Assembly: GCA_018816735.1 (NCBI GenBank)
Contig: JAHIVH010000081.1
Location: forward strand, 124,001-188,000
DNA length: 64,000 nucleotides
Direction of reading: 5' to 3'
Source: Pseudomonadota bacterium
GTDB lineage: Bacteria; Desulfobacterota; Desulfobacteria; Desulfobacterales; JAHIVH01
Shown here: in pieces, positions 49,846-51,709 of the stretch
Position numbering within the stretch: position 1 is the first letter of the stretch
Layout: every line of letters begins with the position of its first letter
Notes under the pieces: model-generated
Database searches by the model: none
Told to the model about the DNA's origin: nothing
What the model saw: only the letters and a program-made list of their open reading frames with translations
Position numbers and translations under genes: made by a program

Positions 49846-50937
49846 ATGAAACTCCTGTTTCTCGAATCATTTTTTGGCGGCTCCCATGGCGAGTTTGCCC
49901 AAGGTCTTGTTGACCATTCGAATCACGATATAGATTTGATCACGATGCCGGATCGAAACTGGCAGTGGCGTATGCGGGGGGCGTCACTCTATTTCTCACA
50001 TGCGATTCATAATCTGGCTGAATATGACGGCCTGATTGTAACGGATTTAATGAATCTTTCTGATTTTAAATCCCTTTCTGCCGGAATGCATTGCCCACCG
50101 GTTCTTGTGTATTTTCATGAAAACCAGATCACCTATCCGGACGTTCCGGACAGGAACCATCATGTTCATTTTGGCATCATCAATATAACGACTGCTCTTT
50201 TGGCGGATAAAATTCTATTTAATTCCAAAACACATCTTGATCGTTTTCTGAACGGCATTCGTCAATTTGTAAGCCAGGTTCCGGATTTTCAACCCGATTG
50301 GGCATATGACAGGGTAGTGGAAAAATCCGATGTTCTGTATCCGGGGGTGGGATTTCCTGAAAAAGTGGATCTCTATGAAAAAGATGATACAATGACACCG
50401 CTCATTATCTGGAATCATCGATGGGGGTATGATAAAAATGCCAGGGCATTCTTTGCCGCCATAGATAAGGCTTTGGAAAATGGGCTTGATTTTCGTCTGG
50501 CTATCCTGGGAGATAATCATTCGATATACCAGGATGAATTCACCCAGGCCAAAAAACGGTATGGCAGCCGGGTTGTGCAATTCGGCTATGTGGCAGACAA
50601 ACACGAATACATTGAGTGGTTGAAAAAAGGAGACATTGTCATCAGCACGGCCTTACAAGAAAATTTCGGCATGGCTGTTGTCGAGGCCATACGATATGGC
50701 TGCCTGCCGCTTTTACCCAAAAGACTTTCCTATCCTGAAATCCTGCCCCGGAAATTTCATGGGGATTTTATGTATGGAAACAGATTCGATATGGACCGGA
50801 AACTGGCAGATCTTCTGATGAATCAACGGACCTATGCTGAAAAGCGTCAGGAACTCTCGGATTCAATGGGACGATTTGCCTGGAAGAATATGATTGTCTA
50901 TTACGATAGGGAATTTGAAAATTTGTTTGGTAACTGA
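49846..50937 (+). CDS. tRNA-queuosine alpha-mannosyltransferase-like glycosyltransferase (DUF3524/GTDC1 family)
   Basis: A 363-residue GT-B enzyme. The N-terminal DUF3524 signature is clear: LFLESFFGGSHGEFAQGL, WQWRMRGASLYF and PVLVYFHENQITYP. The C-terminal GT4-like half has IIWNHRWGYDKN, FGYVADKHEYIEWLKKGDIVIS and ALQENFGMAVVEAIRYGCLPLLP. Vertebrate GTDC1/QTMAN mannosylates queuosine-tRNA(Asp), and bacterial homologues are thought to do the same or a related tRNA modification. It precedes the MerB-like gene by 19 bp, so the two may be co-transcribed, but a functional link is not obvious. Confidence 0.85.
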   Translation: MKLLFLESFFGGSHGEFAQGLVDHSNHDIDLITMPDRNWQWRMRGASLYFSHAIHNLAEYDGLIVTDLMNLSDFKSLSAGMHCPPVLVYFHENQITYPDVPDRNHHVHFGIINITTALLADKILFNSKTHLDRFLNGIRQFVSQVPDFQPDWAYDRVVEKSDVLYPGVGFPEKVDLYEKDDTMTPLIIWNHRWGYDKNARAFFAAIDKALENGLDFRLAILGDNHSIYQDEFTQAKKRYGSRVVQFGYVADKHEYIEWLKKGDIVISTALQENFGMAVVEAIRYGCLPLLPKRLSYPEILPRKFHGDFMYGNRFDMDRKLADLLMNQRTYAEKRQELSDSMGRFAWKNMIVYYDREFENLFGN

Positions 50938-50956
50938 CAGGAGAGGAGAAAAAATC

Positions 50957-51709
50957 ATGATCAAATCCAAGCTGTTGAATCAGACGTTTCACATCATCAT
51001 CGAAAAAATGATCGCCACCGGTCAGGCGCCGCACTACACGGAGATCGCTTCCGTCTTGGATGTGCCGCCGGAAGAGGGGAGAAAACACCTGCATAAGCTT
51101 TTTTCGACCCTTGGGTTTCCCGGCTGGCTTTATCCCCGGACCGATACCATTGTTTCGCTTGCTCCGTTTAACAATCTGCCGACTCAATACCGGCTGACGG
51201 TCGATGGCGAACAAAAGTGGTTTGGGCAGTGAGCATTTGAATCGCTGGCAGTCTGCTGGCTGTTTCCGGGGAAAACGGTTAAAATTGATTCCGTATGCCT
51301 GGATTGTGGTGAGCCTGTGTGCGTTGAGGTGAAAGATGGCAAAATTGTTTCAGAAGACCCCAAGGGGTTGATCGGGCATGTTTCCGTTCCGTTTGGCAGA
51401 TGGATTTTTAATATTCCCTATTCCTGAAGTACAATGAACTTCTTCCGGTCGGAAGAGCACCTGGACAAATGGAACGGGCTGAAAAAGAATGGAAAAGAAG
51501 GCATTATTGAACTCGAAACATTGATGAAGCTGTTTTCAGGTCCCTATTTCCAAAAAAGAAGGGAGCCGGATTATTTCTCTCATATGGGTGAATATCTTGC
51601 CGACATGATCGCATCCCTGGATCAGGTGAAAAATGCAGGCAATTTCTGGCGCATGAGATCATTTGAAAAATTGGGGCTTACGTTGGGGCAGAAGCTGGGA
51701 ATCATGTAA
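50957..51709 (+). CDS. MerB-like organometal lyase homologue with two predicted selenocysteines (UGA at codons 92 and 157)
   Basis: One frame runs from the ATG at 50957 (GGAGAGGAG upstream) to the TAA at 51709, 250 residues. Only TGA at 51230-51232 and 51425-51427 interrupts it. The N-terminal ~75 residues are the MerB-type winged helix. In MerB the catalytic residues are Cys96-A-L-Asp99 and Cys159 before HVHFF. Here codon 92 is UGA in Q-U-A-F-E-S-L, with Glu95 matching Asp99. Codon 157 is UGA in PYS-U-STMNFFRSEEHL. CLDCGE matches the intervening Cys-containing strand. Each UGA is followed by a SECIS-like hairpin. MerB cleaves carbon-mercury bonds, but this homologue may act on other organometals. 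Gene-calling tools would split it in two. Confidence 0.85.
51244..51260 (+). promoter_or_regulatory. Bacterial SECIS-like hairpin after first UGA
   Basis: GCTGGCA (51244-51250) and TGCTGGC (51254-51260) pair through seven positions, including two G-U pairs, around a GTC loop. The loop begins 18 nt after the UGA. As I recall, E. coli fdhF has a similar GCA-GGUC-UGC hairpin tip at nearly the same distance. Confidence 0.65.
51440..51457 (+). promoter_or_regulatory. Bacterial SECIS-like hairpin after second UGA
   Basis: TCTTCC (51441-51446) and GGAAGA (51451-51456) form a perfect 6-bp stem around a GGTC loop, extended by a T-G pair. The loop starts 19 nt after the UGA at 51425-51427 and resembles the fdhF GGUC loop. 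Confidence 0.7.

Follow-up and report, generated by a model that had tools for sequence, protein, structure and literature searches.

Can a relative of the mercury-detoxifying enzyme MerB carry selenocysteine (Sec) at both of its metal-gripping cysteine positions? This question is raised by a gene in a bacterium of the Desulfobacterota (GenBank assembly GCA_018816735.1, contig JAHIVH010000081.1). The window, that is, the whole stretch of DNA analysed, comprises 64,000 nucleotides (positions 124,001 to 188,000 of the contig). The initial annotation, made from the sequence alone, had noted a MerB-like frame interrupted only by two TGA codons at the catalytic cysteine positions and had read it as a probable di-selenocysteine enzyme. 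The observation was confirmed, and the interpretation is supported by the analyses described below. The features of the locus are collected in Table 1.

Table 1. Features of the predicted double-selenocysteine MerB-like locus, in window coordinates.
Position	Strand	Feature	Basis
49846..50937	+	upstream gene, ending in TGA 19 nt before the start codon	in no neighbour cluster of three or more loci
50940..50948	+	ribosome-binding-like stretch ggagaggag, 8 nt upstream of the ATG	sequence; GGAGG-type stretches precede most homologues' start codons
50957..51709	+	double-selenocysteine MerB-like gene (predicted), ATG at 50957, 250 codons plus TAA at 51707-51709	open frame; Pfam; predicted structure
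51230..51232	+	UGA codon 92, predicted Sec at the MerB Cys96 position	conservation of TGA; alignment to MerB
51239..51241	+	Glu95, at the position of MerB Asp99	invariant in 49 aligned members; the two MerB aligned have Asp here
51244..51260	+	SECIS-like hairpin 1, GCUGGC-AGUCU-GCUGGC, apical loop 17 nt after the UGA	constrained scan; covariation; codon choice
51296..51307	+	Cys114-x-x-Cys117; Cys114 in the MerB Cys117 column, second Cys absent from the two MerB aligned	both invariant in 49 members; alignment
51425..51427	+	UGA codon 157, predicted Sec at the MerB Cys159 position	conservation of TGA
51440..51457	+	SECIS-like hairpin 2, UUCUUCC-GGUC-GGAAGAG, apical loop 19 nt after the UGA	constrained scan; covariation; codon choice
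51533..51706	+	C-terminal, mostly helical extension (residues 193-250) beyond the Pfam MerB match	Pfam; alignment; predicted structure

The relationship to MerB was examined first. Pfam MerB (PF03243) matches residues 73-192 at 4.3e-22, and five of the six PDB sequence hits are MerB or MerB2 (E 1.5e-6 to 1.7e-5), the sixth being an unrelated hit at 0.32. When aligned with the MerB proteins of two plasmids, both TGA codons fall on the two catalytic cysteines (signature positions as given in PMC8261052). One detail differs from MerB, as Glu95 is found in place of Asp99. One of the two plasmid proteins lacks the third Cys, in the Cys117 column. The structure predicted by AlphaFold2 on 49 members has a pLDDT of 91.9 and a pTM of 0.87. 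In a Foldseek search of the PDB with this prediction, ranks 1-11 are all MerB or MerB2 (E 8e-11 to 4e-7), while the other rows shown (ranks 12-50) have E of 1 or more.

Two stop codons in a frame may also point to a pseudogene or a sequencing error. GTDB genome contigs were scanned, and 57 loci with a relative were returned, making 58 with the window's own genome. One of the six search patterns held the UGA-92 position read as Cys, whereas the other five did not touch either UGA. Codon 92 is TGA in 56 of 58 loci and TGC in two (loci L040 and L049), and codon 157 is TGA in all 56 loci with data; two loci, L053 and L055, have none there. Both UGAs are present in 54 of the 56 loci with data at both sites. 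By their titles, the loci lie mostly in Desulfobacterota (deltaproteobacteria), with Dehalococcoidia/SAR202, one Poribacteria and one betaproteobacterial record. In 395 genomes of the same phylum, there are 27 long matches with two TGA in 23 genomes, the window's own included (a 26-residue piece in one genome was left out), and the 23 of them that were fetched have TGA at both columns. Some of these are the same genomes as in the first scan. Three genomes (G083, G140 and G077) hold two or three copies of the double-UGA gene on different contigs.

Purifying selection was also observed in all segments of the gene. In the unsaturated cells of 13 pairs, dN/dS is 0 to 0.41, with one value of 0.61, before, between and after the UGAs, although for the window's own three pairs only 2 of 9 cells were unsaturated (0.07 and 0.17). 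Two homologues look broken, as L055 stops early and L056 shifts frame between its halves; beyond the stops themselves, nothing else was found in favour of decay. Thus, the pseudogene or sequencing error reading is rejected by conservation. A changed genetic code, with TGA read as Trp or another residue, is likewise rejected, and nothing was found in its favour. The frame already uses TGG for its tryptophans, the upstream gene ends in TGA, homologues from several phyla (as titled) share the two positions, and Cys replaces the first TGA in L040 and L049.

A bacterial selenocysteine codon is expected to be followed by a SECIS hairpin. The bacterial model (PMC13188914) requires a loop of 3-9 nt, a stem of 4-16 bp, a G in the first two loop positions and a distance of 16-37 nt from the UGA; its energy limit was not applied here. 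A constrained scan found a fitting hairpin of at least 5 pairs at site 1 in 55 of 56 TGA loci, with the loop 17-21 nt after the UGA (L012 has a broken pair and fails), and at site 2 in 54 of 54 loci long enough, with the loop at 18-19 nt. Site 1 has the stem GCUGGC/GCUGGC with a GGUCU-type loop (AGUCU in the window), and site 2 has UCUUCC/GGAAGA with a GGUC loop. Of the 40 listed TGA codons of the window with at least 40 open codons before and 60 after, only these two have a SECIS-like hairpin of 7 pairs, the next best having 5. Rfam at gathering thresholds found nothing in the window.

On 56 and 55 aligned sequences, 99.4% and 98.0% of cells pair at sites 1 and 2, with two-sided changes in 6 cells (one pair, one swap shared by six loci) and 11 cells (four pairs), respectively. 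None of 500 shuffles reaches the paired percentage, the two-sided cells or the covariation score at either site. However, at site 1 the number of pairs changed on both sides and the number of pair types are no more than chance (298 and 259 of 500 shuffles reach them), and the shuffles ignore relatedness. In loci L042 and L045, the closing pair of site 2 flips from C-G to G-C while the protein changes Arg to Ala or Val. Furthermore, codon entropy drops far below expectation at codons +4 to +8 after the first UGA and +5 to +9 after the second, and is near expectation at most flanking codons. In L040 and L049, which have Cys92, the conserved site-1 hairpin is gone while site 2 keeps its UGA and hairpin, a natural control that possibly reflects one event.

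Single-sequence folding energies, on the other hand, gave no support. The window's own two 48-nt stretches do not fold unusually well compared with shuffles (z -0.80 and -0.33), and their minimum-energy folds differ from the consensus hairpins, though in a 60-nt stretch site 2 does show the consensus hairpin (locus L058). The per-sequence minimum-energy fold often differed from the consensus hairpin, and an earlier site-2 motif pattern missed 18 loci, of which the constrained scan covered those with enough sequence.

The machinery for selenocysteine insertion is present in the genome (6.5 Mb, 94.5% complete). It has selA, two selB, two tRNA-Sec (selC), both with anticodon TCA, and one selD over their cut-offs. 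The second selB is divergent (256 bits, with SelB-wing_3 just at the Pfam cut-off and no wing_2 match at E 0.01) and lies about 510 nt from the second tRNA-Sec, besides a standard selB and a standard tRNA-Sec elsewhere (C31:144350-146832, C101 and C11, C denoting contigs of this genome). This is possibly a second Sec-insertion set. The selD (C83:8675-9598) is interrupted by one in-frame TGA and is probably itself a selenoprotein. The co-occurrence of selA with the gene proved uninformative, as 355 of 395 genomes have it, all 23 carriers among them (checked by eye).

Is such a protein already known? The initial annotation had guessed that selenoprotein homologues of MerB may be known, and this is half right. 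SaoL (NF040728), a MerB-like organometallic lyase of the SAO system, is catalogued with one Sec in a CU motif (PMC13188914), whereas no row of that 119-family catalogue as read names a MerB homologue with two Sec. SaoL is the best NCBIfam match of the window protein (47.8 bits, E 1.5e-12), but the window protein does not reach the cut-off of 140 bits of this 159-position model. Against the two NCBIfam MerB models, the window protein scores 43.8 and 37.9 bits, below the cut-offs of 193 and 200. The 49 members match NCBIfam only through the SaoL and MerB models, with a best E of 3.2e-13 for SaoL, from which it is inferred that none reaches 140 bits. A more distant, separate MerB-like family has Cys at the first catalytic column, and the second is Cys in three loci (L108, L109 and L111) and TGA in one (L110); all four score far below the SaoL cut-off. 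The Cys-to-Sec change may therefore have happened more than once.

In the literature, PMC9312934 lists one MerB-like selenoprotein, and PMC7435645 lists an 'organic mercuric lyase MerB2' among predicted selenoproteins, a table entry without sequence, Sec count or position, so that whether it is this family cannot be told. A term search of the main texts of PMC5029168 and PMC2398784 found no MerB. No double-Sec MerB appeared in the titles and abstract openings of the literature searched, although prior mention cannot be excluded. What differs from canonical MerB is the predicted Sec in place of both catalytic Cys, Glu for Asp99, an extra Cys making a CxxC, about 58 residues beyond the Pfam match, and the lack of any mer operon found.

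The neighbourhood was examined for clues to function. Clustering of 507 neighbour ORFs from 57 loci and the window gave at most 4 loci per cluster, though ORFs were called with TGA as stop, so selenoprotein neighbours would be cut, and many loci have short flanks. Pfam on 88 of 107 adjacent ORFs (of the 19 left out, 12 were under 400 nt and 7 longer) gave no mer family among the 25 commonest of 122 families. No conserved operon was found within these limits, which leave open whether the gene lies in an operon with other selenoprotein genes; SaoL belongs to an operon with six. The genome has no MerA over the curated cut-off (best 404 against 454 bits).

It does, however, have the mercury-methylation gene hgcA, at 415 bits against a cut-off of 275. 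In the phylum sample, hgcA (E up to 1e-60) is in 19 of 23 carriers and 98 of 372 others (Fisher P = 8.5e-8). At the curated cut-off, it is in 17 of 23 and 97 of 372, as two of the carriers' matches (in G057 and G077) are fragments below it. Four genomes with fragments or weak pieces only (G374, G387, G019 and G150) were counted as non-carriers, and two of them (G387 and G019) have hgcA. Within taxonomic families the link weakens but stays, with 18 observed against 12.1 expected (permutation P = 0.00065). This test used 87 genomes of 11 families, from which some genomes may be missing, and the window's own genome, alone in its family, was left out. Size-matched within family, hgcA is in 14 of 18 against 6.3 expected, and genome size also predicts hgcA in that regression. 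The link was further tested against lifestyle: cdhC is also commoner in carriers (20 of 23, P = 0.02), but within cdhC-positive genomes hgcA is still in 17 of 20 carriers against 63 of 232.

Among 50 genomes behind loci of the first scan, which overlap the phylum sample in part, 32 have hgcA (31 over the cut-off). The Chloroflexota loci L046 and L048, the betaproteobacterial L049, and L040, L050 and L051 are among the 18 without a match. So hgcA is a frequent partner, not an obligate one. The two genes are not linked, as in the 19 carriers with both, hgcA lies on another contig in 18 and about 3.5 Mb away in one (G282).

Taken together, the best explanation, with a probability of roughly 0.7 for the whole of it, including the function given next, is a MerB-fold protein with selenocysteine at positions 92 and 157, each inserted at UGA by SelA/SelB/tRNA-Sec/SelD under its own hairpin just downstream. 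MerB cleaves the Hg-C bond with proton help, using Cys96, Cys159 and Asp99 (PMC4525700). By analogy, the two selenolates would grip the metal of an organometal, most likely methylmercury or another organomercurial, while Glu95 would stand in for Asp99 and help protonate the carbon, releasing methane or an alkane. The Cys114-x-x-Cys117 pair may help take the freed metal off the site. From the sequence evidence, the double-Sec protein is close to certain, though without direct data on Se incorporation. An organometal lyase or binder of the MerB type is likely but inferred, in the absence of enzyme data, and organomercury as the main substrate is about an even chance.

Two other readings share the double-Sec protein but not the substrate. 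It may work on other organometals or metalloids (tin, lead, arsenic, antimony), or only bind and sequester soft metals. The lack of a conserved mer context in the neighbours examined, Glu95 in place of Asp99, the 18 of 50 carriers without an hgcA match, and the description of MerB-like variants with other metal preferences (PMC8261052) favour this reading. The association with hgcA points instead to mercury, though this is correlation only, and the alternative is considered rather doubtful. A diselenide/CxxC redox protein on a MerB scaffold, with no metal substrate, is unlikely. The conserved CxxC beside two Sec fits it, and most uncharacterised selenoproteins are thought likely to serve redox functions (PMC13188914); nevertheless, the Sec positions are exactly the MerB metal ligands, and the predicted fold matches MerB only.

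Both metal ligands of a known metalloenzyme thus appear to have become selenium, conserved across Desulfobacterota, Chloroflexota and a few other lineages as their records are titled. This offers a natural test of what selenium adds to mercury chemistry. It is tentatively possible that anaerobes which make methylmercury (hgcA carriers) use such a diselenol organomercury lyase to break it down or keep it in check, a hidden demethylase overlooked because gene callers stop at the first UGA. A 2021 survey reports that none of the genomes encoding only MerB encode HgcAB (PMC8261052), and it is inferred that a UGA-interrupted MerB could be missed by a search of annotated proteins. If the protein cleaves methylmercury, it would help explain demethylation by anaerobes that methylate mercury.
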